Shown here in pieces: positions 1-12,892 of a stretch of 12,892 bases of DNA. Source of the DNA: Gemmatimonadota bacterium. Its GTDB lineage: Bacteria > GCA-2686955. Position numbers and translations under genes: made by a program. The first letter of the stretch is position 1. Each line of letters begins with the position of its first letter. Under the pieces are notes generated by a model. That model ran no database searches and had not been told where the DNA came from. It saw nothing but the letters and a program-made list of their open reading frames with translations. The stretch is taken from NCBI GenBank assembly GCA_002686955.1, contig NYZA01000072.1, forward strand, positions 1 through 12,892, written 5' to 3'.

Positions 1-23
1 CCCTTTTGTGGCGAAACGTGTGT

Positions 24-42
24 AGCAACCCGTTTCTACCGC
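24..42 (+). repeat. 18-nt short repeat, left copy
   Basis: AGCAAC followed after one extra C by CGTTTCTACCGC. The same string without the extra C occurs at 762-779. The two copies bracket the small exported-protein gene and most of the gene-free stretch after it. The function is unknown; it could be the edge of an old mobile unit or a chance match. Confidence 0.45.
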
Positions 43-56
43 AACTGGGGCCTTCT

Positions 57-254
57 TCAATTCAATAACGAAACTTCTTCACGAATTATTCGGGCTAGCC
101 CCTCAGACGTAGAGGCGTTGAGACCGACGAACCCAAGACCATTCCCACCTCCGTCGTAGGCGACAGTCGTCGCGCCGACCCACTGATACGGGTCGGTCTG
201 AGCGTAGCCGGCCGGGGCAACGAGGAGAAGGGCAAGGATCAGCATCCAGCGCAT
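57..254 (-). CDS. small exported protein, hypothetical
   Basis: This encodes 65 residues. The start at 254 is preferred over an in-frame ATG 30 nt upstream, because GGAG lies about 8 nt before it and translation then opens directly with a signal peptide (MRW, then a run of Leu/Ile/Ala/Val, ending GYAQ). The mature part is only about 45 residues, rich in Gly, Thr and Asn, with YQWVGATTVAYDGGGNG near its start, and has no cysteine. That suggests a periplasmic or secreted peptide, or the N-terminal part of a longer protein that has been cut short by the TGA at 57-59. I do not recognise a family. No partner gene is adjacent: the next gene on this strand, the DUF499 fragment, ends about 830 bp upstream. 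Confidence 0.5.
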   Translation of the reverse strand: MRWMLILALLLVAPAGYAQTDPYQWVGATTVAYDGGGNGLGFVGLNASTSEGLARIIREEVSLLN

Positions 255-1080: not shown

Positions 1081-2004
1081 TTAATCCTCAACCTCAACCC
1101 CACCAGTCAGCCCGAGGTCGTCGAGGACTTGCCGCAAATCAGCCGTCAGCGCATCCGCGCCTGGCGCCTCGACATCCACCGAGAACTCCACTCCCACCTT
1201 TAGATCGGTCCCCGACCGGAGCTTCGGCAGCAGCTTCGTACCAAGTCGATTCCAGACCTCAGGCGGGATATTCCCGCGCACCCGAATAGTCCTGGCCTGC
1301 GCGACCGGCTCAGGCCCGGGGCCTCCGCCGGTCACTGGATCCGGCTGCACCACGGGGCCGGGCCCAGGATCCGGTGTGACGACCGGATCAGGCTGAGATC
1401 GCAAGGCCTTTGCCTTGGCCTTCTGCAGAAGAAATACATTCGACTCGAACGCCACCTCATCCGAAGCGATCGATTCCTCGAACCAAAGCCGCTCGAACGT
1501 CCCATCCGGCTTCTGGCCTGAACCAAGACCAAAGTCTCCCTTCCCCACGAACTCAACGACCTTCCCACGCAGGACCGCATCCGGATCCACCAGACGCGTC
1601 AGCGCCCCGTTCAAGAAGCTCTGGCGCAGGCTCGCCAAGGGCCACGCTCCGGACTCCTTCAAAGCAGGCGGCCAGTTGCGGTCCAAGTACCCGGCGCCAA
1701 CAGACTCGTTCAGCAACGCCTGCGACTTGAGCGCCGTGATCACTCGCCCGCACAAGCTCTCGCTCGCGCTTGCATGACCAGCTCCGAGATCGATGGCCGC
1801 GAGTCCATCGGGCTGCTGGCTGTCTGCAAGGACCACGAAGCGATACTCGGCCCAGACCTCGTCACGCGCAGCCTCTTCCGCATCGGAGACCTTGGTCTTG
1901 ATCTCAGCCCGGTCGGAGGGGTCGAACTCGCCGCCCAGAGTGCCTTCGGCAATCTCCGTCGCGACCCGTCGCCCGGAACGAGCCCCTTTGGGCCTACTTG
2001 TCAT
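1081..2004 (-). CDS. C-terminal fragment of DUF499-type ATPase fused to repeat-encoded start
   Basis: The frame is 307 codons. Residues 1-11 ([11 protein letters not shown]) come wholly from the 84-bp repeat; residue 12 onward is foreign to it. From about residue 40 the sequence resembles the C-terminal third of large DUF499-domain P-loop ATPases, which are often found with DUF1156 methyltransferase-like proteins in anti-phage loci (recognised from memory, not searched). Visible hallmarks are DEVWAEYRFVVLAD, SLRQSFLNGALTRL, a Pro-Asp-Pro-rich linker at about 205-240 (PDPVVTPDPGPGP) and a terminal domain with IPPEVWNRLGTKLLPKLRSG. Full-length members are roughly 1000 residues, so the Walker motifs and most of the protein are missing. 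The reading frame is intact, so a tagged 33-kDa product could be made, but ATPase function is lost. Whether it is expressed is unknown; it may simply be a fragment kept open by chance. Confidence 0.75.
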   Translation of the reverse strand: MTSRPKGARSGRRVATEIAEGTLGGEFDPSDRAEIKTKVSDAEEAARDEVWAEYRFVVLADSQQPDGLAAIDLGAGHASASESLCGRVITALKSQALLNESVGAGYLDRNWPPALKESGAWPLASLRQSFLNGALTRLVDPDAVLRGKVVEFVGKGDFGLGSGQKPDGTFERLWFEESIASDEVAFESNVFLLQKAKAKALRSQPDPVVTPDPGPGPVVQPDPVTGGGPGPEPVAQARTIRVRGNIPPEVWNRLGTKLLPKLRSGTDLKVGVEFSVDVEAPGADALTADLRQVLDDLGLTGGVEVED

Positions 2005-2055
2005 ATCGCCCTACTATCGGTGGTGCGGAAAACGGGGCTTATTTTTCCTACTCCC
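1972..2055 (-). repeat. 84-bp interspersed repeat, copy 1 (tail type A)
   Basis: It begins CCCGGAACGAGCCCC and ends CTACTCCC on the plus strand. The first 63 nt are identical to copies 3 and 4. The tail matches copy 2. The two ends form an imperfect inverted repeat: GGAA-CG-AGCCCC against GGGGCT-TATTT-TTCC. Read on the minus strand it holds three AGTAGG motifs and an ATG with AGGG four nt before it. The left flank is the truncated DUF499 gene; the right flank is a truncated recombinase reading the other way. Confidence 0.95.
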
Positions 2056-2387
2056 CAGAGAACGGCCTGATCCAGATCTGCGCCAAGCTCGATTGGCGTC
2101 CCAAGACGCACGCAGAGCGCGCGGTCCAGATCCCGGCGTCGCTCGTCGAGCAGCTCGGCCGACATCGAAGCAAGGTCGCCTCGAATGGGTCGGACTGTGT
2201 CTTCCCGGTTCCGAGCCACAGCGGGCAGTGGACGGAGACAGGACTCAGCCACGCGGCGAAACGAGCCGCGCAGGGGTCGGAAGTCTGGGAACCGCGCCGC
2301 TAGCTGCTCCACGATCTTGGGCGGTCCTGTGCTTCACATCTCCTCGCCGCCGGTGACCCACCCCCGGTTGTCGTAGCGGTCCCTCCT
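2056..2387 (+). pseudogene. tyrosine recombinase/integrase C-terminal remnant
   Basis: Immediately right of repeat copy 1 the plus strand reads a piece of the catalytic domain of a phage-integrase-type tyrosine recombinase. Residues RPKTHAERAVQIPASLVEQL match the region before the second catalytic box (KT.. then VPIP..L). After a TAG at 2301-2303 the same frame resumes with LLHDLGRSCASHLLAAG, which aligns with the HDLRHxxASHLL box II. The box II Arg is replaced by Gly, the first catalytic Arg region is absent, and the later His and the Tyr nucleophile are lost where the frame runs into the upstream region of the sulfatase gene. The remnant is therefore dead, from an in-frame stop and truncation at both ends. 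It may be the relic of an enzyme once associated with the repeat, or unrelated debris. Confidence 0.7.
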
Positions 2388-2444
2388 TTGGACCGAGGGC
2401 CTGTCCCGGCTGGAGCGACTCACCGAAGTGGATACACTCTCCGA

Positions 2445-4406
2445 ATGCGCCAGATTGCTCGGGTGTCATTTGTGTGCGCAGGTGCCGCCTGCTTGGGGAT
2501 GATCGCGATCGAACTCGCTTTCGAGGCGCTGGTCGTGGGCGAGGCTAGGCCTCGCGACACTGCGTGGATGCAGCTCGCCATCAAGCTCAGTCGCGGTATT
2601 GGCATCGACCTGTTCGAGATCTTCCCTCCCTGGGTCAACCGCAGCTTCGATCTATCGGATGCGACGGATGCGGCCCAATACTTCGGGCTCGTCTGTGTCG
2701 TCAGCCTCGCGCTCGCTTGGAGCGCCGCGGCGCTGATCCTGACCATGGTCAGCCTGGTGCGCGGGCTGACTGATGGACCTCGATGGCTCGTCGTGGAAGA
2801 CAAGGCAGCTGTGCTCGTTTTGAGCGCATTCGCGTGGCCGGGTCTCAGCGCGCTCTTTTGGCTAGGCGCCCGCGGCTACGCCAAGGCCCTCCATTTCGCG
2901 CTCGGGGGCCTTCTCTGCTTGGTCATCGCGGCCCTCGGTGTTTGGTTGTCAGCCCGTCCTGCAATCTCCGATCGTTGGATCTCGCGTTTGGGATTCGCGA
3001 ACACGACGACGATCTCGCTCGCCCTGGCCGCGGGGCTGCTGGGTGTGGTACTTGCGCCGGAGTTTCGTTGGTCGGGTGTGGTGTCACCCGACCCGGACGC
3101 ACCCAATGTCGTGTTGATCTCGATCGATACGCTTCGGGCGGATCATCTTGGCTGCTATGGGTACCCTCGCGATACGAGCCCGGCGATCGATCGAATCGCT
3201 GCTGAGGGCGTGCTCTTCGAGAACGCGGTTTCTCCGACATCGTGGACTCTTCCCTCACACATGTCGATGATGACTGGGTTGTCTCCCGCACAGCACAGAA
3301 TCACGAACTGGGGTAGGCGCCTGGACGACGATGTCGTCACCCTTGCGGAGGTGGCTCGTGAATCCGGGTACGCCACCGCGGGCTTCGTCGCCGGTCCCTT
3401 CGTCGAAGGGACGTACGGATTCTCGAATGGCTTCGACGTCTACGACGACCATAGCGCGATGATGCCGCCGCCCTCGCATCAGGGCATAACATCCCCGCTG
3501 CTCTTCGGGCTGGTCGATCGGTACCTGGGAGCGTGGAACTCGGCAGATCGGCCCGTGCCCTTCTTCATCTTCCTTCACCTCTGGGATGTCCACCACAACT
3601 ATCAGCCGCCCGCGCCCTTCGATTCGATGTTTGGGCCGGTCCAAGAGGGAGTCTCGCACGGTAAGCCGGACCTGCTCGACAAGCCGGAGGATGCGGAAGA
3701 GCTGATGAAACTCTACGACGGCGAGATCCGATACGTCGACACGTATGTCGAGAGGTTGTTCCAGAGGCTCGAGGAACTCGGCATCGCGGACGACACGATC
3801 CTCGCGATCACAGCGGACCACGGCGAGGAATTCTTGGACCACGGCCGGTTGACCCATCGTCAGCAGCTCTACGAGGAGTCTATCCGTGTTCCGCTAATCA
3901 TTCGCTGGCCCGAAAAGATTCCGCCCGGCCAGGTCGTCGCCGCCCAGGTCCGGCTACAGGACATTGCGCCCTCTCTGGCGAGTATGATCGCTCAGTCGAG
4001 CGCCCCCGAATTTGGCCGGAGGAGCGATTCCGGTGCCTCGGTCGGTGTCGACCTCAGTCCTCTGATTCTAGCCGGAGCCACTGAAGCCGAGTGGGAGGAC
4101 ATCACGCCTCGGATCGCATTCGGATCGCTCGACCACCTCGACGAAAAACTTGCCTACGCGCGCACGAACAGGTTTAAGTTGATCAGACGCGTATCGCCCA
4201 TCGAGGAGGTACAGCTCTATGATCTATGGAACGATCCCGACGAATCGACGGATCTCTCTGGCGAGATGCCGGATATGGTCGCTCAGCTCAGCGACGAGCT
4301 GGACCATTGGCAATCGCGGCACAACGATCAATCCGAATATTTCATCGAGACCGACGTGAGCGAAGAGCACAAGGCAAATCTGCGCGCGCTGGGCTACATC
4401 GAGTAG
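2445..4406 (+). CDS. membrane-anchored sulfatase/alkaline-phosphatase-superfamily hydrolase
   Basis: This is a 653-residue inner-membrane protein. The ATG at 2445 is chosen because the protein then opens with the first membrane helix; upstream in-frame codons belong to recombinase debris. Five hydrophobic segments lie at about 7-31, 80-105, 120-141, 149-170 and 188-204, followed by a sulfatase domain, most likely periplasmic, from about 219 to 580. The metal-binding start is NVVLISIDTLRADHLGCYGY (221-240), and the late metal site is ITADHGEEFLDHG. In the nucleophile motif, SWTLPSHMSMMTG (266-278), Thr268 stands where Cys or Ser is converted to formylglycine and His272 stands where the conserved Arg is. 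Such variants recur in membrane sulfatase-like proteins and might be phosphotransferases or hydrolases of lipid or glycan head groups; the substrate is unknown. The gene appears monocistronic. Confidence 0.85.
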   Translation: MRQIARVSFVCAGAACLGMIAIELAFEALVVGEARPRDTAWMQLAIKLSRGIGIDLFEIFPPWVNRSFDLSDATDAAQYFGLVCVVSLALAWSAAALILTMVSLVRGLTDGPRWLVVEDKAAVLVLSAFAWPGLSALFWLGARGYAKALHFALGGLLCLVIAALGVWLSARPAISDRWISRLGFANTTTISLALAAGLLGVVLAPEFRWSGVVSPDPDAPNVVLISIDTLRADHLGCYGYPRDTSPAIDRIAAEGVLFENAVSPTSWTLPSHMSMMTGLSPAQHRITNWGRRLDDDVVTLAEVARESGYATAGFVAGPFVEGTYGFSNGFDVYDDHSAMMPPPSHQGITSPLLFGLVDRYLGAWNSADRPVPFFIFLHLWDVHHNYQPPAPFDSMFGPVQEGVSHGKPDLLDKPEDAEELMKLYDGEIRYVDTYVERLFQRLEELGIADDTILAITADHGEEFLDHGRLTHRQQLYEESIRVPLIIRWPEKIPPGQVVAAQVRLQDIAPSLASMIAQSSAPEFGRRSDSGASVGVDLSPLILAGATEAEWEDITPRIAFGSLDHLDEKLAYARTNRFKLIRRVSPIEEVQLYDLWNDPDESTDLSGEMPDMVAQLSDELDHWQSRHNDQSEYFIETDVSEEHKANLRALGYIE

Positions 4407-4416
4407 TCGCTTCCCG

Positions 4417-4464
4417 GTTTTTTTTGGGGGGCCGGGTAGCTGCCCGGGTAGAGGTGACCTACCC
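4417..4464. other. T-tract and GC-rich inverted repeats after the sulfatase gene
   Basis: A run of eight T is followed by GGGGGG, then two direct CCGGGTAG copies (4432-4439 and 4444-4451) and GGGTAG/CTACCC arms at 4446-4451 and 4459-4464. It lies between the ends of two convergent genes. It could serve in transcription termination or be the outer end of the IS3 element; the T-run precedes the stems, so it is not a textbook terminator on the plus strand. Confidence 0.35.
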
Positions 4465-5054
4465 CGGTTGGCTTACCAGCCTCCATGTTAGCCTCGCAGG
4501 TCCCGCGCGATGAAGCGAAGCGGAAGCGGGCGGCATGAGCCGCCAGGCTTCGGGGGCCGGCGGCCGGTAGCCGGGCGAGCTGTGCGGCCCGATCGTGTTG
4601 TCCTCCCGCCGCCATCGCTCGATCAGCACCTTTGCCTCCGTCAGCGTGTAGAAGATTTGGCCGTTCAGGAGCTCGTCGCGCAGCTTCCCGTTGAACGACT
4701 CGTTGTATCCATTCTCCCAAGGGCTTCCGGGCTCGATGAACAGCGTCTGCACACTGAGCCTGCCCAGCCACTCCCGCACCGCCTTCGCCGTGAACTCGGC
4801 TCCATTGTCCGATCGGATATAGGTCGGCGTGCCCCGCTCCGTGAAGAGCGCCGTCAGCCGCTCGAGCACGTTCTCCGAGTCGAGCCTCCGCTCCACGTCG
4901 ATCGCCAGGCACTCCCGCGTGTACTCGTCCACCATCGTCAGCATTCGGATCGGACGCCCGTCGTGGGTTCGATCCGCGACGAAGTCGTAGGACCAGACAT
5001 GATCGCGGCGCTCGGCACGGCGCCGGATACAGGAACCGTCGCCGAGCCACAGGC
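4459..5054 (-). pseudogene. IS3-family OrfB transposase, 5'-truncated
   Basis: About 198 residues of the integrase core of an IS3-family OrfB. The frame reads back from [11 protein letters not shown] through [20 protein letters not shown] and GLWLGDGSC to the edge of repeat copy 2, where it stops being IS3-like. The complete DDE triad is visible: Asp in WSYDF, Asp in RSDNGAEF, and exactly 35 residues later Glu in GYNESFN. The typical tail [13 protein letters not shown] follows. The N-terminal HTH_21 part of OrfB and all of OrfA are missing, so the element cannot transpose by itself. The cut falls at the same repeat boundary as in the DUF499, rnpB and 12759-12817 fragments. The repeat's ATG is out of frame here. 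Confidence 0.92.
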
Positions 5055-5139
5055 CCCGGAACGAGCCCCTTTGGGCCTACTTGTCATATCGCCCTACTAT
5101 CCGGTGGTGCGGAAAACGGGGCTTATTTTTCCTACTCCC
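5055..5139 (-). repeat. 84-bp interspersed repeat, copy 2 (tail type A, one extra C)
   Basis: Identical to copy 1 except for one additional C at about 5101. The left flank is the IS3 OrfB fragment. On the right, the first frame after the repeat runs only about 20 codons to a TGA at 5202-5204, possibly another short 3' gene end. Confidence 0.95.
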
Positions 5140-5322
5140 GCGAGGCGCAGACGCGGCTTGTTGTCACCGATTTGCATCGGCCGTTGCGGCGCCCGGAGGG
5201 ATGAGATCTGCGCCCGCTTGTCGTTCCCAGGATGATGTCGGCGGTAGACAAGGGACGCCTAGCGGGGGGGCTCCAGAACGCGCATCTTTCCAACCCTTGG
5301 GGCTGGACGAACCGGAGAGTTG

Positions 5323-5739
5323 ATGCACATAGAGTCGCTCGATCACATTCACATCTACGCCGCCGACCCCGAAGCGTCCGCCGAGTTCTATCAGCGTCAC
5401 TTCGAAGCAAAGCCCGTGCATCGCAATACCAACGCCAACGGCGACACGCGTATCTTTTTGGCGCTCGGTGGGCAAATTATCGTGGTCGGCGATTTGCCGG
5501 CGGGCATGGCGCCGGCTCCACTGCCTGAAACCGGCGACGGTGCATATGTTCACGGCTTTGGCGTCGCGCATTTCGGGCTTCGGGTTGCGGATCTGGTCGC
5601 GGCCGCTGCGGAGCTTGCGGCTTCGGATGTTCGCCTTCTCGGCGAAATTGTGAAGGAACCAACCGGGCTTTCCTACTTGTACGTTGTCGCTCCGGACGGC
5701 GTCGTTCTCGAGCTCACTCAGTACGAGTCCGCCGTCTAG
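5323..5739 (+). CDS. glyoxalase/VOC-family protein
   Basis: This encodes 138 residues, the usual length of a single-domain vicinal oxygen chelate protein with two paired beta-alpha-beta-beta-beta modules. Likely metal ligands are the His in LDHIHIYAADPEASAEFY near the start, the His of VAHFGLRV in the second module, and the Glu of GVVLELTQYE near the end. Members include glyoxalase I, dioxygenases, epimerases and drug-binding proteins; the sequence does not say which this is. The ATG at 5323 has GGAG 6-8 nt upstream, which decides it over a TTG one codon earlier. The thioesterase gene follows 83 bp downstream on the same strand, so the two may be co-transcribed. Cytosolic: no signal peptide. 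Confidence 0.88.
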   Translation: MHIESLDHIHIYAADPEASAEFYQRHFEAKPVHRNTNANGDTRIFLALGGQIIVVGDLPAGMAPAPLPETGDGAYVHGFGVAHFGLRVADLVAAAAELAASDVRLLGEIVKEPTGLSYLYVVAPDGVVLELTQYESAV

Positions 5740-5822
5740 CGCGATGGCTCGCCCCTCGCGGCAGGTAAAAGGCTAATCTTTGCCGATCGTCCCCCCGATA
5801 GATCTCGAGGGGCGCATGCGAA

Positions 5823-6746
5823 GTGGATACTGTGTTTGAAATTCCTTCTGTCGGTGAATTCGACGAGGAGGCCGCCGAGCGCGCGCCGCTCGCGGGTTTC
5901 CATCTTGGGGATGGAGGGCCGGATGACTCGCGGGAGACCTGGTTCCTGATTCGAAGCTGGAGCCGTGAGCTGCGTCTCTATCAGAACCTGGCTCGCCACC
6001 TCGGCGACGATCGCCGCATCGTCACCATCGCTCCTCCGCGCGGAACGCGGAAAGAAGATTTCCCACGTACGGTCGAACGCTGGCGCGACTTTTGCCTTGA
6101 GCGCTTGCGGCCGCAGTTGGGTTCAAACCCGCGTGTCTTGCTCGGCGGCTGGTCGTTCGGTGGCGTGCTCGCACTCGAGATGGGGCGCCAGCTTGAGAAA
6201 GACGGAACGCCAGTTGCGTTGGTCACGATGCTCGACACCCGGCTCCCCAAGGCGCATCCGACCGAGCAGCGAATTGCCCGCTCGCTCCCCCATGCCTTAG
6301 CAAATCATGCGACGCGTTTCTTCGAAACCCCCTCCGAAGGTCGAGGCGAATATCTGCGAGAGCGACTCGCCTGGCAGTTCTATCACGCGCGACGCAAGGC
6401 TGGGGAGTGGAATGCGGCACGGCGCAATCAGCCTGCACCGGTCTATCAACGTCCCGACGGTCGAACCTCCGAGCCGCGCGACGTCACCGAGATGACCCCG
6501 CTGCAGAAAGCACTTTGGGTCGCCTATCTGAAGTATCAGCCGCGCGAGTGCACGGTCCCGGTCGCACAATTCTGGTGCGACGACTCGTGCTTACACACCG
6601 GCGACGCGAGTCTCGGCTGGGCGCGCTACCTGCGCGGCCCCTTCGTTTCGCTCCCAATTCCCGGCGGACATCTCACGATGTTCGACGACCCCCACGCCGA
6701 AGCACTAGCCCAAACCCTCGGCGAGCGACTCGCGTCACTCGTCTAG
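5823..6746 (+). CDS. alpha/beta-hydrolase thioesterase (PKS/NRPS type)
   Basis: This encodes 307 residues with the thioesterase fold of polyketide or non-ribosomal-peptide synthases. After an N-terminal extension comes the beta-strand opening DDSRETWFLIRSWS, then the nucleophile elbow LLGGWSFGGVLALEMGRQL (GxSxG, catalytic Ser at about residue 114), an acidic residue in the lid or late-strand region (FWCDDSC), and the catalytic His in PIPGGHLTMFDD about 25 residues from the end. The GTG at 5823 is the likely start, with GAGGGG about 11 nt upstream; a nearby ATG at 5816 gives only a short frame. Length suits a free-standing type II thioesterase or the released TE domain of a synthase, but no synthase gene is in the window. 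It may act on an acyl-CoA or acyl-carrier thioester. It follows the VOC gene on the same strand. Confidence 0.85.
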   Translation: MDTVFEIPSVGEFDEEAAERAPLAGFHLGDGGPDDSRETWFLIRSWSRELRLYQNLARHLGDDRRIVTIAPPRGTRKEDFPRTVERWRDFCLERLRPQLGSNPRVLLGGWSFGGVLALEMGRQLEKDGTPVALVTMLDTRLPKAHPTEQRIARSLPHALANHATRFFETPSEGRGEYLRERLAWQFYHARRKAGEWNAARRNQPAPVYQRPDGRTSEPRDVTEMTPLQKALWVAYLKYQPRECTVPVAQFWCDDSCLHTGDASLGWARYLRGPFVSLPIPGGHLTMFDDPHAEALAQTLGERLASLV

Positions 6747-6840
6747 TTCGAAGTTCTGACGTGGCTTGTTGTTTGTCCAGCTGCGGCGAGCGTTTCGCAA
6801 CGCAGCGATCATGTCGAAGTCGCGCGATCGAGAGGGCTGC

Positions 6841-6860
6841 GAGCTGCTTCGAAGCAGCTC
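6841..6860. other. perfect 20-bp palindrome
   Basis: GAGCTGCTTC is followed immediately by its exact reverse complement. It lies about 95 bp past the thioesterase stop and before the rnpB fragment. It could be a dimeric-protein operator, a hairpin terminator (CTCTGTTCTT follows on the plus strand) or a leftover recombination site. Confidence 0.5.
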
Positions 6861-6896
6861 GCTCTGTTCTTGCCAGCCAACAAGGACCCGTAGGAG

Positions 6897-6937
6897 CCCG
6901 GCGGGGCTTATCAGAAGACTGACTTCCTCCCGCCGGG
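6897..6937 (-). terminator. strong stem-loop downstream of the rnpB fragment
   Basis: CCCGGCGGG (6897-6905) and CCCGCCGGG (6929-6937) form a perfect 9-bp GC stem around a 23-nt loop. A smaller hairpin, ACCAA-GCAA-TTGGT on the minus strand (6944-6957), lies between it and the rnpB 3' end. Both sit where an rnpB 3' processing or termination structure would be. No clear T-run follows, so intrinsic termination is only possible. Confidence 0.4.
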
Positions 6938-6960
6938 TGCCCAACCAATTGCTTGGTCGG

Positions 6961-7165
6961 TAGTGGACTGTAAGCCGGGTTCTGTTCTGCTTTGGGCTCT
7001 CGCCCTCGCAGTGAGGATCATTCCTCTAGGCGACACGTTGCCGTGTAGCTCAAGCACTCTCACCCGGATACCCCGAGCCGGCGAGCCGGTTCGATGGGAC
7101 GGGTCGTCCTCTGCGGTATCCCTATTCGAGCTTGCTCCGGGAAGGGCTTGCCTCGCCGCCGGTCA
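6961..7165 (-). ncRNA. rnpB: RNase P RNA, 3' half (5'-truncated)
   Basis: The minus strand carries the conserved 3' half of bacterial class-A RNase P RNA, the ribozyme that matures tRNA 5' ends. Recognisable landmarks in order are CCCGGAGCAAGCTCGAATAGGG, matching the CCCGGAGCAAGGCCAAATAGGG element of E. coli; CCGGGT followed by GCTTGAGC; CCTAGAGGAATGATCC, matching the CCUAGAUGAAUGACUGUCC region; and near the end ACAGAACCCGGCTTA. The 5' part, including P1 5', P2-P4 5' and the specificity domain, is missing; the molecule starts at the first base next to repeat copy 3. It cannot be a working ribozyme, so the cell must have an intact rnpB elsewhere. The exact 3' end is estimated because its P1 partner strand is lost. 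Confidence 0.92.
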
Positions 7166-7249
7166 CCCGGAACGAGCCCCTTTGGGCCTACTTGTCATAT
7201 CGCCCTACTATCGGTGGTGCGGAAAACGCAGCTTGAAATCCCTATTCCC
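7166..7249 (-). repeat. 84-bp interspersed repeat, copy 3 (tail type B)
   Basis: The 63-nt core is identical to copies 1 and 4. The tail (CAGCTTGAAATCCCTATTCCC) differs from type A but aligns with it: both read CG, GCTT, then CCTA-C/T-TCCC at the same spacing. The left flank is the rnpB fragment. The repeat's minus-strand ATG meets a TGA directly after codon 11 here. Confidence 0.95.
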
Positions 7250-7272
7250 CGCCGACCGTCAGGCTGGACAAG

Positions 7273-7587
7273 ATGAGTAGCAGGAAGGGAAGGGGCGGCA
7301 CTGCCGTTTCGTCGGTGCCCAACCCCCGGAGCGCGCAGACATCGCCGCCCCGGCTGCCAGGGTGCCCGTTTCTAGAGCTGAGCCCCGATAAACTCGGTGA
7401 AATGATGGCCCCCACGCTCGACCTAGACGAGTTGGGGCCGTCGATCGGCTCGCCAGGAAGTGACCTCAGCGGGCCAGATTACGATCACTTCCTCTCGGTG
7501 CTGGGAGCCGGGCGAAAGCTGCGTCGAGCCGAAGTCGGGAAAGCCGTCCGGCATAGCTTGATGGTCAGTCGTTTCGACTGGTCCTGA
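7273..7587 (+). CDS. hypothetical protein
   Basis: This encodes 104 residues and is of unknown family. It begins 23 bp right of repeat copy 3; GGACAAG just before the ATG may serve as a weak ribosome-binding site. The first 35 residues are Arg/Ser/Pro-rich and low in complexity. The middle is more protein-like (FLELSPDKLGEMMAPTLDLDELG), followed by GPDYDHFLSVLGAGRKLRRAEVGKAVRHSLM. There is no signal peptide or membrane helix. It may be a real small gene or a fragment that has acquired a start; the true start could be internal. Confidence 0.45.
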   Translation: MSSRKGRGGTAVSSVPNPRSAQTSPPRLPGCPFLELSPDKLGEMMAPTLDLDELGPSIGSPGSDLSGPDYDHFLSVLGAGRKLRRAEVGKAVRHSLMVSRFDWS

Positions 7588-7775
7588 GCCCTTCGCCTCT
7601 CTGCCACGATGTTCACCGATTCCGATTGCGGGCTGTGGTTCCGGCGAACGGAATTGGGGTCGTCCTGGCCCAGGTCGTCGCCGTGAACACCCCGGCAACG
7701 GCGCTACTGGTTTCAGCCCGACAGCTTTGGATTTGGAGTTGAATGACGGCGGAACGTGACGCAATCTGACCGCCG

Positions 7776-8912
7776 ATGAGAACGATCGAGATCGAGCCCG
7801 AAAAGTCAGCCAGCCGATACGATCAGCTTGCTTCCTACTGCGAGAGCAATCTGCTGAGTTCCGATAGGACCTTCTGTTGCGCCAACGCTGACGCATGCCG
7901 CCAGTCAATTCGCGGTGACTGGAAGATCTATGAAGGGCAGTGCTCCTACCTAGGAGAGCACTACGAAGCACTCGATGACGGCCACCCGATGCGAATTCTC
8001 GTCGTAGCGATGCAAACTGGACGGCCGAACGTCGGCGTGGACCTTCAAAGGCGTCGATCGCAGCTTCAGCGCTCGCGAGACAAGCCTTATTCGGGGTCGG
8101 ACAGTCGAAACGCCCACATGAAGGGAGTGACGACGGCGCTCAAGGTTCTTTGGGGAATTGATCCGACTAGCGGTAGCGAGGGAGAGTTGCTGGAAACCAA
8201 TCGCGGGCAGGTCCATCTCTTTGACACGTTCGCAATGGCGAATGCGACCCTTTGTTCCCGCATCAAAGTGGGATCAGCGAAGGGCCAGGGCACAAACGTG
8301 ATGCTCGATCGCTGCTCCAAGCACCTTCGAGAGACCATCCGCATACTTGAGCCCACGATCATCCATTCCCAGGGACGCCAGAAGGCGGGTCGATGTACGC
8401 ATACGTCGGTCGAGGCAGCTTGCGACGAAATTGAATGGATAGATGACTACGTAGCGCGCGTCAGAATCGGCGATGTGCGAGCAGTCTGGGTCAGTCTGCG
8501 TCATCCCTCGATGCAATGGGGAAAGCAGCAGCTCAAGGACGTGGTTATTCCGGCGCTAGAACGGGCACGGTCGCTCTCTCGATCACAAGAGTGCCCGGTG
8601 TGCCGAACTCCTGTTCCGCACGTAGCGCGTCATCCCCGATATCTGTGCGAAAGCTGTGCTTCCGAAGCGTGTAGCAGCGACGGGCGAGCACTCGAATTTT
8701 CGAACGTTGACATCTCTGGTGGATTTGAGGCCGTATACGCGGACACTGGCGCACCCTACGAAGGACACGTCTGCTTCGTTCGTGGCTTCGAGTGTTGGGC
8801 AGACGAGTATCGCTTCGGTGGAATTGTCATCGAAGTTCGAGATCCAGATTCGGATCTCCGAGGTACCGCAACCCCTCGGCCGCGCGGTTTCCGAAGACCT
8901 CGACCTTCCTGA
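7776..8912 (+). CDS. uracil-DNA-glycosylase-like protein fused to zinc-ribbon domain
   Basis: This encodes 378 residues in two parts. Residues 1-265 look like a distant uracil-DNA-glycosylase-superfamily domain: a strand with MRILVVAMQTG (72-82) where the active-site loop sits, HMKGVTTALKVLWG, FDTFAMANATLCS (149-161), ILEPTIIHSQG (190-200) and VSLRHPSMQWG (239-249), matching the UDG HPS motif. Clustered cysteines (34, 35, 41, 56, 160, 180) might hold an Fe-S cluster as in family 4 UDGs. Residues 271-355 begin with a zinc ribbon (CPVC...CESC, 273-294) and continue with SGGFEAVYADTGAPYEG and ADEYRFGGIVI, a module I know as a small stand-alone protein. The expected role is recognition or excision of a modified or damaged base, or antiviral use of that fold; activity is not shown. 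The Pro/Arg-rich last 20 residues look like read-through. No strong ribosome-binding site. Confidence 0.65.
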   Translation: MRTIEIEPEKSASRYDQLASYCESNLLSSDRTFCCANADACRQSIRGDWKIYEGQCSYLGEHYEALDDGHPMRILVVAMQTGRPNVGVDLQRRRSQLQRSRDKPYSGSDSRNAHMKGVTTALKVLWGIDPTSGSEGELLETNRGQVHLFDTFAMANATLCSRIKVGSAKGQGTNVMLDRCSKHLRETIRILEPTIIHSQGRQKAGRCTHTSVEAACDEIEWIDDYVARVRIGDVRAVWVSLRHPSMQWGKQQLKDVVIPALERARSLSRSQECPVCRTPVPHVARHPRYLCESCASEACSSDGRALEFSNVDISGGFEAVYADTGAPYEGHVCFVRGFECWADEYRFGGIVIEVRDPDSDLRGTATPRPRGFRRPRPS

Positions 8913-9139
8913 TGTAGCCCGGAGGGTGCCCGTACTTTCGTGCCGGGAGACTTCGCTGACGGTGATGACCGAGGCACAGCGAGCGGCGGTGCTCGCGGCG
9001 GCCAGGACCGAAGGCAATTGGCGAGTCCGGCGACAATTGGGAATGGGTGTTTAGGGCTTCGCAAGGATCTGCCCGTCAGATTCGCGGGGGCGCGGGCACT
9101 GGGCGCTACCATCATGCCGAGGGTGCAGGGGAACCGGAA

Positions 9140-9721
9140 ATGACGGACGAAGAGAAGAAGAAGATCCGGGCTCGCCTTCGGAGCTACGAGCGCAAGCTTC
9201 GAAAAGAGAAGGAGAAGTACGGCTGGTACGACGACGGCGCGGGCAAGCGGTACCAGATTGGCCCTCACTACATGCTCCTCGATGACAACGACGGCGCTCT
9301 TGGGGCCTTCCAGTGGTTCGAGAAAGAGTTTCCTGACGACGTTGGCGTGCCCGATCACTTCCTGTGCTGGAGCCTCGCACTTTACCGGGCGGGCAATGAG
9401 ATCGGCGCGGCCAAGAAGCTGCGGCAAGCGATGTTCAGCAACCTCTACCTCGTGCCCCGATTGCTAGGCATGCCGATCGCCGAACTCGATATCTGGCACG
9501 GGTCGAGCGACGCCGAGCTTTCCTACGCCGAGCACATTCACGAGCCCTACCTCGAAATCTGGACCGAGGAAGAGAAGGCGTGGGCGCAGGGCCTCTATGA
9601 AGGCCCGGGGTTCTGGTCGGCCCGCGAGCGCTTCATCAAGATCGCCAGGGCGCTATCGACAACGCGACCCGGCCCGGAGCGAAGCCGTCTGGTCGAGGAA
9701 CTGCACAAGTTGGAGCGGTGA
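9140..9721 (+). CDS. TPR-like helical protein, hypothetical
   Basis: This encodes 193 residues, soluble, with no catalytic motif seen. It opens with a charged helix (MTDEEKKKIRARLRSYERKLRKEKEK, residues 1-26), then GWYDDGAGKRYQIGPHYMLLDDNDGALGAFQWFEKEFPDDVG, a tetratricopeptide-like pair of helices, then LCWSLALYRAGNEIGAAKKLRQAMFSNLYLVP as a second pair. The C-terminal half (LDIWHGSSD to ELHKLER) is conserved-looking but not assignable. Such proteins are usually annotated as tetratricopeptide-containing hypotheticals and act, if at all, through protein contacts. The ATG at 9140 is chosen because the preceding 31 codons of the open frame are Arg/Gly-rich and unlike protein, and GGGGAACCGG lies just upstream. 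It sits between the glycosylase-like and DUF262 genes on the same strand. Confidence 0.75.
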   Translation: MTDEEKKKIRARLRSYERKLRKEKEKYGWYDDGAGKRYQIGPHYMLLDDNDGALGAFQWFEKEFPDDVGVPDHFLCWSLALYRAGNEIGAAKKLRQAMFSNLYLVPRLLGMPIAELDIWHGSSDAELSYAEHIHEPYLEIWTEEEKAWAQGLYEGPGFWSARERFIKIARALSTTRPGPERSRLVEELHKLER

Positions 9722-9836
9722 AATCGACGGCGGCGCGGGGAGGGTGGTGCCCGTTGCTTGCCGAAACCGTTTTCTTCGGTCGCATCGTCCTGCTCGTGTA
9801 GCCGTGGTTCCGATCACGAAGATCACAAGTTCCACT

Positions 9837-9859
9837 TGCGGCTCTGGTTGCGATTGCCG
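9837..9859 (+). repeat. composite short repeat upstream of the DUF262 gene
   Basis: TGCGGCTCTGGTTGCG (9837-9852) recurs exactly at 11847-11862. The overlapping CGATTGCCG (9851-9859) appears as its reverse complement at 11861-11869, the same place relative to the 16-mer. The pair encloses the DUF262 gene. Confidence 0.55.
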
Positions 9860-9968
9860 ATAAGAGAGTCGCAGTGGCATCGAAATGGGCTCATTGTCGG
9901 TCACGACGGTTGCGAATGGAGCCGGTCACTCCATATCGTCAAGAAGCGGCTCTACCTGGGGGGATTCA

Positions 9969-11816
9969 ATGGCGACTTTCGACTCAACAAAAACCCGACT
10001 CGCGGTCCTTCTAGACGAGATCGAGGCTGGCAAGATCCAGTTGCCAGACTTTCAGCGTGGCTGGGTCTGGGACGACGAGCATATCCGGTCGCTGCTGGTG
10101 AGCATCGCCAGGGCATTCCCAATCGGGGCAGTGATGCTCTTGGAGAACGGCGGAGATACGAGGTTCAAGGTTCGTCCGGTAGAGGGCATTGATACTTCGG
10201 CCACCGGGGAGGATGTCGAGAAGCTGATCCTCGACGGGCAGCAGCGCCTCACTTCCCTGACTCAAGTGCTCAAGCTTAATACGCCGGTCCAGACGAAGGA
10301 CAACAAGAAACGCCTGATCGAGCGGTACTACTACATCGACATCGAGCTAGCCCTGGAAGGGCCACAGTCTTATGAAGACGCGATCATCAGCGTAGATTCT
10401 CAGAAGACGCAGCGAACGAACTTTGGCCGCGACATCACACTCGATTTGAGTACGCCCGAGAAGGAGTACGAAAACTTCTACTTCCCATGCAGCCAGATCC
10501 TCAACTCGGATACCTGGGAAGAGGGCCTCAATACGTTCGATTCGTCGAAATTTCCCCAGTACATGGACTTCCGTAAGAACGTCCTCAGCGTCTTCCGAAA
10601 CTACGACGTACCGGTTATCGAGCTAAAGAAGGACAACCGGAAAGAAGCCGTGTGCTTGGTCTTCGAGAAGGTCAACACGGGGGGCGTCCCGCTCTCGGTT
10701 TTCGAATTGGTCACCGCTACCTACGCCGCAGATGGCGTCAACATGCGCGACGAGTGGTACGGCAACCCGAAGGAGAGCGTTGAGGGGCTGAGCAAGTGGC
10801 TCGGGCGTCAGCGGATGCTGAAGGACATCCAGCCCACTGATTTTCTTCAGGGTCTCTCTTTGCTCTACAGCTTCGAACGTCGGAAAGAAGACGTTGCTGC
10901 GGGCAAAACGGGCAAACAGATTACCGGCGTCAGCGCCAAGAGAGAATCTGTGCTCGCACTCCCCCTCGAAGCCTATCAACGCCTTCGCGATCCCCTTCGT
11001 GATGGATTTTGGCTCGCTGCCAAGTTTCTGCGGAAAGAATCCTTTTTCTCCAAGAGGGATCTGCCGTACCGAACTCAGCTCGTGCCGTTGGCGTGCATCT
11101 TGGCGCTGCTCGGTGACCGCTGGCTTGAACAGAGCGTCTACAACCGCCTCTCGCAATGGTTCTGGTGCGGTGTTCTCGGCGAACTCTATGGAGGCGCGGT
11201 CGAGACTCGAATGGCACTCGACCTTCAGGAGATGATCGCGTGGATCGACGGCTCGGACGCGGAACCAGCCACGGTGCGAGATGCCAATTTTCAGCCTGCG
11301 CGGCTCGACACCTTGCGTTCAAGGAATAGTGCCGCGTATAAGGGCATCCATGTGCTGATTCAGAGAAACGGTGCAGTCGATTGGTTCTGGAAGACCACGA
11401 TTCGTGACCTCGATGAGACTGATTGGGAGGAGAACAAGCTAGATATTCATCACATCTTCCCGAAGGACTGGTGCCAGAAGCGGAGCATCGAACCAAGAAG
11501 GTTCAACTCGATCCTTAACAAGACGCCGATCTCGTACAAGGCAAACCGGATGATCGGCGGCAAGGCTCCGAGCGAGTACATTCAGCAGCTTCAGACGCAC
11601 AAGAGCGTCCAGCTAGACGACGGCGAGATGGACGAGCTTCTTGTCACTCATTGCCTGGACACCGGCCTGCTCCGAAACGATGACTATGACGGTTTTGTCG
11701 AGGCCCGCCGGAAGACTCTTGTCGAGCACATTTCGGGTGTCATGGGGAAGCCGGTGGTGGAAACCGGCGAAGCGGTCGCCGAGGATGAAGTTGATGACGA
11801 TGAGGGGGATGAGTAG
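9969..11816 (+). CDS. GmrSD-type restriction protein, DUF262 + HNH (DUF1524-like)
   Basis: This encodes 615 residues. The N-terminal DUF262 (GmrS-like) domain shows IQLPDFQRGWVWDDEHIRSLL (23-43) and the nucleotide-binding LILDGQQRLTSL (86-97). The centre has KVNTGGVPLSVFELVTATYA. The C-terminal His-Asn-His nuclease region reads LDIHHIFPKDWC (from about 491) followed by NSILNKTPISYKANRMIGGKAPSEYI, with the asparagines expected of the motif. In GmrSD, a type IV enzyme, the two domains use NTP hydrolysis to cut phage DNA with modified bases; here both are in one chain, a common single-protein form. All key motifs look intact. The ATG at 9969 is preceded by GGGGGGA six nt away, a strong site; the open frame upstream is not protein-like. 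The tail is acidic (EDEVDDDEGDE). It follows a TPR-like and a glycosylase-like gene on the same strand, separated by 247 bp. Confidence 0.92.
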   Translation: MATFDSTKTRLAVLLDEIEAGKIQLPDFQRGWVWDDEHIRSLLVSIARAFPIGAVMLLENGGDTRFKVRPVEGIDTSATGEDVEKLILDGQQRLTSLTQVLKLNTPVQTKDNKKRLIERYYYIDIELALEGPQSYEDAIISVDSQKTQRTNFGRDITLDLSTPEKEYENFYFPCSQILNSDTWEEGLNTFDSSKFPQYMDFRKNVLSVFRNYDVPVIELKKDNRKEAVCLVFEKVNTGGVPLSVFELVTATYAADGVNMRDEWYGNPKESVEGLSKWLGRQRMLKDIQPTDFLQGLSLLYSFERRKEDVAAGKTGKQITGVSAKRESVLALPLEAYQRLRDPLRDGFWLAAKFLRKESFFSKRDLPYRTQLVPLACILALLGDRWLEQSVYNRLSQWFWCGVLGELYGGAVETRMALDLQEMIAWIDGSDAEPATVRDANFQPARLDTLRSRNSAAYKGIHVLIQRNGAVDWFWKTTIRDLDETDWEENKLDIHHIFPKDWCQKRSIEPRRFNSILNKTPISYKANRMIGGKAPSEYIQQLQTHKSVQLDDGEMDELLVTHCLDTGLLRNDDYDGFVEARRKTLVEHISGVMGKPVVETGEAVAEDEVDDDEGDE

Positions 11817-11846
11817 GTACGGGGTGCTCTTGCGACCAGACCCCCC

Positions 11847-11869
11847 TGCGGCTCTGGTTGCGGCAATCG
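11847..11869 (+). repeat. composite short repeat downstream of the DUF262 gene
   Basis: It carries the same 16-mer as 9837-9852, then CGGCAATCG, the reverse complement of the 9-mer at 9851-9859. A preceding GCGACCAGA can pair with TCTGGTTGC (one mismatch), so this copy can fold. A weaker relative, TGCGATTCTGGTT, occurs near 12135. Confidence 0.5.
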
Positions 11870-11873
11870 CCCT

Positions 11874-11888
11874 GCGCTCTGGGAGCGC
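11874..11888. other. GC-rich hairpin after the DUF262 gene
   Basis: GCGCTC and GAGCGC pair perfectly around a 3-nt TGG loop, 58 bp past the stop codon. No T-run follows. It may help end transcription or be part of the repeat unit just before it. Confidence 0.3.
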
Positions 11889-11921
11889 GAACTGCGCGCG
11901 ACTCGATACTGTCGTGAGTCG

Positions 11922-12041
11922 CTACCAGATCTTGTCCGGGTTGTTCCACATCCAGACGAGCATGTCCTTGAAGACGACACCGAACATGACGACGAACGCG
12001 ATCACGAATAGGGTCCCGATCCCGGCGATTCTGTTCATCAT
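11922..12041 (-). CDS. 39-residue single-helix membrane protein
   Basis: Two tandem ATGs open a short frame: MMNRIAG, then a hydrophobic stretch of about 19 residues (IGTLFVIAFVVMFGVVF), then KDMLVWMWNNPDKIW and TAG. One positive residue before the helix and a Trp/Lys-rich end give it the look of a real one-pass inner-membrane mini-protein. It lies in the gap between the convergent DUF262 gene and the minus-strand hypothetical, about 120 bp after the latter's stop. The ribosome-binding site is weak. Function unknown; such proteins can be regulators of larger membrane proteins or small toxins. Confidence 0.5.
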   Translation of the reverse strand: MMNRIAGIGTLFVIAFVVMFGVVFKDMLVWMWNNPDKIW

Positions 12042-12160
12042 TGCGCTGCGCTCATTTCGTGGCGGTGGCGCGAGAAGTTTCGTTGACGACTTGATCGCAC
12101 GACTTCATTGCAGGTGCCGAGCGGGGGGGCGAGCCTGCGATTCTGGTTCCAGTCACCGGG

Positions 12161-12487
12161 TCATTCATCGTCAAAAAGCAGCCCCTCAAATGGGTCCCCC
12201 GGCGTGGCAGTCGCTTTGAGCCATTCCGCCTGCTCCTTGAGCCGAGCTGGCCCGATCTGGCGGTATATGTTCGCCGTGTCAATCTGCATCTTCAGCGGCA
12301 GCGACGGTTCGGTTCCGCACAGCACCCAGTACCGGATCGCGTCGAGGAGATAGCGGGCGGTCCCGACGACCACATCGCGGTAGTCGGGATCAGCTATCAG
12401 AAAGTCCTTGGGGTTCCTCGCTTCTTCCTGAATGGCCTGCCAGCGCTCCAGCTCTTGTTGCATTTCGTCGATCCATCGTTCTCCCAT
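12161..12487 (-). CDS. hypothetical protein, partner of the RHH gene
   Basis: This encodes 108 residues and is of unknown family. The ATG at 12487 is chosen because AGGAGG lies 9 nt upstream; the open frame continues further upstream, but only as an out-of-frame reading of the RHH gene. It has an amphipathic helical start (MGERWIDEMQQELERWQAIQEEAR), then PKDFLIADPDYRDVVVGTARYLLDAIRYWVLCG, and a C-terminal IYRQIGPARLKEQAEWLKAT ending acidic (GLLFDDE). No signal peptide or clear membrane helix. It starts 38 bp after the RHH stop on the same strand, so the two probably form an operon, which could be a toxin-antitoxin or plasmid-type regulatory pair; no toxin motif is recognised. Confidence 0.7.
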   Translation of the reverse strand: MGERWIDEMQQELERWQAIQEEARNPKDFLIADPDYRDVVVGTARYLLDAIRYWVLCGTEPSLPLKMQIDTANIYRQIGPARLKEQAEWLKATATPGDPFEGLLFDDE

Positions 12488-12525
12488 CTCAGAAGCCTCC
12501 TGGCGTCTCTGTCGCCCTCGCTCGC

Positions 12526-12744
12526 CTATCGCGAGGCTTTGCCCTTCTTGCGGCGGCGCGGTTTTTCGGGGGCGGCCACGTCGTCCGCAGCGCCAACCTG
12601 CGCCACGACCGGCTGGTCGCGCACCCAAAACCTCAATAGAACTTCGAACATCGCGCTGCGACTGAGCCCCATCGTCTCGCGCTCGCGGTCGAGAATTTCG
12701 AGACCCTGTTCGGTGAGTGACACGTTGATTCTCTCTCTGGACAT
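12526..12744 (-). CDS. ribbon-helix-helix (CopG/Arc-type) DNA-binding protein
   Basis: This encodes 72 residues. The first 40 fit the ribbon-helix-helix fold: a beta strand RINVSLT (5-11), helix EQGLEILDRERETM, a turn with G-L-S-R-S, then helix AMFEVLLRFWV. The C-terminal tail is disordered and very basic (PEKPRRRKKGKASR), likely adding DNA affinity. Such proteins bind DNA as dimers and often autoregulate their operon or act as antitoxins. Start at 12744 with AAGGGGGG a few nt before it; it begins 14 bp after the stop of the truncated gene at 12759-12817, which suggests the original operon had at least three genes before the repeat replaced its front. Confidence 0.82.
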   Translation of the reverse strand: MSRERINVSLTEQGLEILDRERETMGLSRSAMFEVLLRFWVRDQPVVAQVGAADDVAAPEKPRRRKKGKASR

Positions 12745-12758
12745 TCGCCCCCCTTGGC

Positions 12759-12817
12759 CTATGCGGCCTTCGCCTCCAGCGTCCCTTCGAACTCGCGGCG
12801 GGTGATATGGTCAGCGG
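12759..12817 (-). pseudogene. last ~19 codons of an unknown gene, cut at repeat copy 4
   Basis: Reading minus from the edge of copy 4, one frame gives DHITRREFEGTLEAKAA and a TAG at 12759-12761. It ends 14 bp before the RHH start, the spacing of an operon, so I read it as the 3' end of the former upstream gene. It is too short to name. The repeat's own ATG frame runs through here in a different register. Confidence 0.5.
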
Positions 12818-12892
12818 CCCGGAACGAGCCCCTTTGGGCCTACTTGTCATATCGCCCTACTATCGGTGGTGCGGAAAACGCAGCTTGAAATC
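12818..12892 (-). repeat. 84-bp interspersed repeat, copy 4 (tail type B, cut by window end)
   Basis: The 63-nt core is identical to copies 1 and 3 and the visible 12 nt of tail equal copy 3. It runs off the end of the window. Confidence 0.95.

Follow-up and report, generated by a model that had tools for sequence, protein, structure and literature searches.

A short non-coding repeat at the junctions of truncated, unrelated genes in two marine MAGs

How do four copies of one short repeat come to lie in the same orientation along a single small contig, each directly adjoining a gene that lacks its beginning? The question is raised by contig NYZA01000072.1 (C72), which belongs to the Gemmatimonadota MAG GCA_002686955.1 (G000; 4.28 Mb in 270 contigs); the whole contig, of 12,892 nucleotides, is the window to which positions refer. 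A repeat search of the window returned the four direct copies given in a preliminary description of this DNA, beginning at 1972, 5055, 7166 and 12818. The element is 84/85 bp long and is termed R here. An 85-bp repeat with zero or few changes cannot be a product of chance. The copies, the segments between them and the genes cut at their edges are as follows.

41-98, minus strand: 58 bp identical to positions 7199-7256 of contig C15; in C15 the stretch ends at the R left edge, in C72 there is no R at this place
1081-1971, minus strand: DUF499 protein, C-terminal part only, ending at R copy 1 (tblastn to DUF499 proteins)
1972-2056, plus strand: R copy 1, right-arm type v2, CCCGGAAC...CTCCCC (repeat search and alignment)
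2057-5054: segment A, with a recombinase-like piece, a sulfatase and an IS3 orfB piece
2057-2303, plus strand: 5'-open frame starting at R copy 1, tyrosine recombinase-like by eye
4459-5054, minus strand: IS3 orfB (rve), 5'-cut at R copy 2
5055-5139, plus strand: R copy 2, type v2 with a 1-bp insertion (TATCCGG) (repeat search and alignment)
5140-7165: segment B, with a glyoxalase, a thioesterase and an rnpB piece
6955-7165, minus strand: bacterial RNase P RNA of class A (rnpB), present with its 3' part only, 5'-cut at R copy 3
7166-7250, plus strand: R copy 3, right-arm type v1 (repeat search)
7251-12817: segment C, with a GmrSD/DUF262 protein, unknown genes and a 5'-cut frame at R copy 4
12818-12892, plus strand: R copy 4, cut by the contig end at R position 75

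R has a narrow distribution, and both genomes that carry it are marine MAGs. G000 contains seven copies, confined to three contigs of its 4.28 Mb: four within the 12.9 kb of C72, two within the 7.3 kb of C15, where the contig stops inside the second, and a single copy of 85% identity within the 12.6 kb of C94. An exact 25-mer of R, searched against 84,980 GTDB species genomes, led to a single further genome, the "Planctomycetota" MAG ARS15 (G060), where R is likewise clustered and has four copies, two of them identical over 85 bp and two shorter ones at 79%. R copy 3 of the window is 100% identical to two of the G060 copies and to one in C15. Within a contig the copies are in direct orientation (all four in C72, both in C15 and both long copies in C127 of G060), an observation that rests on few copies. 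The preliminary description had proposed searching the 84-mer against the host and related genomes; this recovered the host copies and nothing from 159 other genomes searched whole. R was found neither in 59 genomes drawn as relatives of G000 (one from the same family, the rest from the same domain), nor in the two genomes of its phylum, nor, using a degenerate pattern, in 100 relatives of G060. IMG/VR and phages contained neither R nor parts of it, and plasmids gave only 24-bp matches at chance level. More distant cousins (C15_x, C94_b and C94_c), which have the left edge region and the core in common with R, occur within G000 only in C15 and C94. In C94, three members of the R family follow stop codons at a distance of 15-74 bp, with the same relative orientation.

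In an alignment, R reads CCCGGAAC GAGCCCCTTTGGGCC TACTTGTCATATCGCCCTACTATCGGTGGTGCGGAAAACG, followed by a 22-bp right arm that ends in TTCCCC or CTCCCC. The preliminary description had stressed a sharp, common left edge, and CCCGGAAC is indeed identical in all four copies of the window, but the right edge is equally sharp: both are fixed in four sequence variants, and the right neighbours are cut genes too. Copies 1 and 2 have one right arm in common (GGGGCTTATTTTTCCTACTCCC), copies 3 and 4 another (GCAGCTTGAAATCCCTATTCCCC), within which copy 4 ends. All 8 differences between v1 and v2 fall within the last 22 of the 85 positions (P ~7e-6 if they were randomly spread). Compared with C94_a, the v1 arm has 8 differences and the v2 arm 3, while the left parts match C94_a equally. 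As the differences are restricted to the last 22 bp, and v2 is closer to C94_a with the left parts being equal, R is a mosaic in which the right arm was probably exchanged, with the switch near GGAAAACG.

R is non-coding and, at 85 bp, lacks a transposase of its own. Inspection of the alignment revealed no clear pair of terminal inverted repeats at its ends, CCCGGAAC and TTCCCC not being mutual inverted repeats, and the repeat search found no inverted repeats of at least 25 bp in the window. A candidate partner for a terminal inverted repeat beside the minus-strand copy in C127 of G060 was rejected, as it is sulfatase coding sequence. Across the copies compared by eye no matching bases that would indicate a target-site duplication were evident, and there is no constant target motif beyond the edges of R. 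No Rfam family matched in the window at the gathering threshold.

Nine R copies have both flanks, and at none of them (0/9) are the two halves of one gene seen. The missing 5' parts, as had been reported for the window, do not continue across R; no right flank that was read continues any left-flank gene. The DUF499 fragment matches residues ~645-812 of a 999-aa intact relative, intact relatives of the IS3 orfB extend 5' beyond the junction at copy 2, and a short open frame to the left of copy 4 is also 5'-cut. In G060, a sulfatase left of R starts mid-domain, matching the Sulfatase profile from position 121 of 301. These 5'-cut left neighbours (DUF499, IS3 orfB, rnpB, sulfatase) point away from R. 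The claim that all fragments had lost the same end is correct for the four copies of the window only; it fails elsewhere because an IS481 gene (C15), an IS3 orfA (G060, by direct reading) and an IS91-family transposase (G060, C100), all pointing towards R, are 3'-cut. A long DUF4011 protein is represented in C15 by its N-terminal part, which stops 16 bp short of R. The right neighbours of R comprise an SBF transporter that lacks its start, a frame resembling HsdS on direct reading, and the recombinase-like frame at 2057-2303, which has no Pfam match and only weak tblastn matches. The segments between R copies are 1.8-5.6 kb long and carry several genes, on both strands, with cut ends. No intact copy of the cut IS3 orfA was found in G060, and the C127 segment gave only short matches to relatives of G060 and therefore no empty site; neither a complete empty site nor a circle was seen.

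Over ungapped positions, the rnpB piece has ~74% identity to the intact rnpB of the host itself (contig C225), whereas that gene is 89% identical to its counterpart in the family member G001; judged by this comparison, the piece is foreign and the host retains an intact rnpB. Its 5' half was not found in the G000 genome. The piece meets R in the P9 loop. There the natural rnpB sequence is similar to CCGGG, the end of R, so that a microhomology of up to 5 nt at this junction is possible. A 24-bp perfect palindrome occupies 6839-6862, with the thioesterase gene on one side and the rnpB piece on the other.

The 58-bp stretch near the beginning of the window continues in C72 into other DNA, the contig start being 40 bp further on. 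As these 58 bp exist with and without R at their end, they are consistent with a join at the R left edge. The first copy of a separate repeat, GCAACC(C)GTTTCTACCGC (window 20-44 and 757-783), lies beside this stretch.

What the preliminary description had taken for a sequence that marks or creates junctions is partly supported, in that R lies between unrelated segments; the mechanisms suggested at that time fared less well. A leader joined to transcripts is not supported, given the lack of the ATG in the C94 copy and in the short G060 copies and the presence of genes on both strands of the segments. The leader frame of copy 2 is out of frame with IS3, and a leader peptide or leader RNA was rejected, as the ATG is unconserved and the frames disagree.

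We tentatively favour, at somewhat less than even odds, the explanation that R is a small mobile or junction element that is not autonomous and builds direct arrays of captured segments. According to this scheme, R would have two fixed, non-identical ends and move together with neighbouring DNA, the unit being a single R with the stretch next to it, of any length, probably in the form of a circle. Such a unit would enter beside an existing R, or by recombination with it, and after repeated rounds R copies and segments would alternate head to tail (R-segment-R-segment), all in one orientation, the segments ending anywhere inside genes. The enzyme recognising R, a transposase or recombinase, would be supplied in trans. 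We infer the mobility, the circles and the trans-acting enzyme; no transposase or recombinase with ends matching R was found, and a search for an autonomous partner with R ends in G000 and G060, which are incomplete MAGs, gave only whole R copies or pieces of chance length. Weighing against a mobile element are the lack of a clear terminal inverted repeat, the small number of copies, the restriction to MAGs and the fact that C72 and C15 end inside R.

The closest parallel is found in the translocatable units and pseudo-compound arrays of IS26, in which one IS travels as a unit with the DNA next to it and takes its place alongside a further copy (PMC7986276). IS26/IS6 arrays likewise consist of direct copies between segments that are cut anywhere in genes, with one copy per segment and with target duplications often missing (PMC7986276), and the array of directly oriented copies with segments cut at the element, typical of IS26, is also found with R. 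In these features, and in having no evident target duplication, R arrays behave like those of IS26. IS26, however, has a DDE transposase and 14-bp inverted repeats, while R is a non-coding 85-bp sequence without clear inverted repeats; having neither transposase nor inverted repeats, R is not a member of the IS6 family. MITEs such as MITEPsy1 (PMC3189936) and TIMEs, miniature elements derived from Tn3 that form mosaic transposons built around host DNA (PMC4133298), resemble R in being short, non-autonomous and present in near-identical copies, but they have terminal inverted repeats and normally duplicate their target, neither of which is evident for R.

The strongest competitor, although on balance rather unlikely, is that the junctions are assembly joins: R would be an ordinary MITE-like repeat in several marine bacteria, whose copies were merged by a short-read assembler so that flanks from different places or species became mixed. 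R is 100% identical across two different MAGs, segment B contains a foreign rnpB piece, and C72 and C15 break inside R, which indicates that the assembly is ambiguous there. From its contig names we take G060 to belong to the Tara Oceans Megahit set. If this inferred origin is correct, 85 bp is near the read and k-mer length. The assembly method of the Tara/Megahit set has been published (PMC5769542). A sparse repeat, however, would not give R every 2-6 kb in one direction, as in C72, C15 and C127, wrong joins or not; mixing explains scrambled flanks but neither the density nor the common orientation. A 1-bp insertion is peculiar to copy 2, and the arm of copies 1 and 2 differs from that of the other two, so that their junctions rest on distinguishable R sequence. 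Also against assembly joins is that the left-flank genes are not continued in any right flank. For single junctions, wrong joins at R are a real possibility, because R is about as long as such reads, is common to two genomes, and forms the point where two contigs stop. The same reservation applies to the earlier statement that simple insertion does not explain the flanks: insertion is unsupported, though flanks may have been swapped in assembly. An origin by plain MITE-like insertions in an IS-rich region, with ordinary homologous recombination between the copies or deletions coming later, is improbable. Several left neighbours are IS pieces, and the cousins C15_x, C94_b and C94_c resemble resident repeats of the host, but no two-flank copy has one gene across R or an evident target duplication. 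The copies are recent, given that they are identical, yet none of the right flanks was seen to contain a missing gene half, and the genome yielded no 5' half of rnpB.

A serious alternative, if also an improbable one, is an array produced by site-specific recombination, with R as its attachment site and with segments that act as cassettes, exchange taking place by crossover within R in an integron-like or Xer-like manner. Such a crossover would fit the mosaic structure with its switch near GGAAAACG. As in the attC arrays of chromosomal integrons, a conserved site of similar length stands in one orientation between unrelated segments, and some family members, namely the three in C94, follow stop codons closely. 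Yet attC core boxes (R'' RYYYAAC, R' GTTRRRY) were not seen by eye at the ends of R or its cousins, single-strand DNA folds of R are no better than those of shuffled sequences, and the segments are larger than cassettes, multi-gene, encoded on both strands and cut within genes. The one recombinase-like candidate seen is the short frame beside copy 1, which has no Pfam match. About equally doubtful is a cassette system of an undescribed kind, without attC features, that recombines at R; it would take up arbitrary multi-gene fragments, including chromosomal DNA of foreign origin like the rnpB piece, into directional arrays and pass between bacterial lineages. One-ended rolling-circle transposition of the IS91/ISCR/Helitron type, with R as the fixed end and the segment as captured tail, is less probable still. 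Capture and one-ended transposition have been described for IS801 in P. syringae (PMC3189936), and IS91/ISCR/IS801 elements do capture adjacent DNA with an arbitrary end, which would agree with the variable length of the segments; one R copy of G060 directly adjoins a truncated transposase of the IS91 family. That gene (Y2_Tnp), however, seems itself to be 3'-cut by R, and the other copies, including those of C72, have no IS91 nearby. R also differs in having two fixed ends, no HUH transposase of its own and no constant target motif outside. A one-ended unit, among the earlier suggestions, is not specifically supported because both R edges are fixed and genes are cut on both sides.

If the junctions are real, a non-coding element of 85 bp is sufficient for fragments of foreign and host DNA to be assembled into arrays. 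Uncultured marine bacteria would then have a non-autonomous counterpart to gene capture of the IS26 type, with relevance to the unsolved question of how cassettes come by their sites. Should the junctions be assembly joins, the case is a useful caution about shared short repeats in MAGs.

Some further features were noted in these contigs. The GmrSD/DUF262 restriction-like protein of segment C (9885-11816) matches Pfam GmrSD_N and PADLOC HEC-05/PDC-M55; with DUF499 nearby and DUF4011 in C15, these genes are perhaps the remains of defence islands. A 378-aa open frame at 7776-8912 has no Pfam or PADLOC match. In contig C100 of G060 (L029), a small repeat with terminal inverted repeats (TAGGAAGAATAAGCCCCGGATTCGCTAGGCG) is present at 984-1125 and 1592-1639. 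Its outer bases resemble the right arm of R, and it possibly represents a MITE family.
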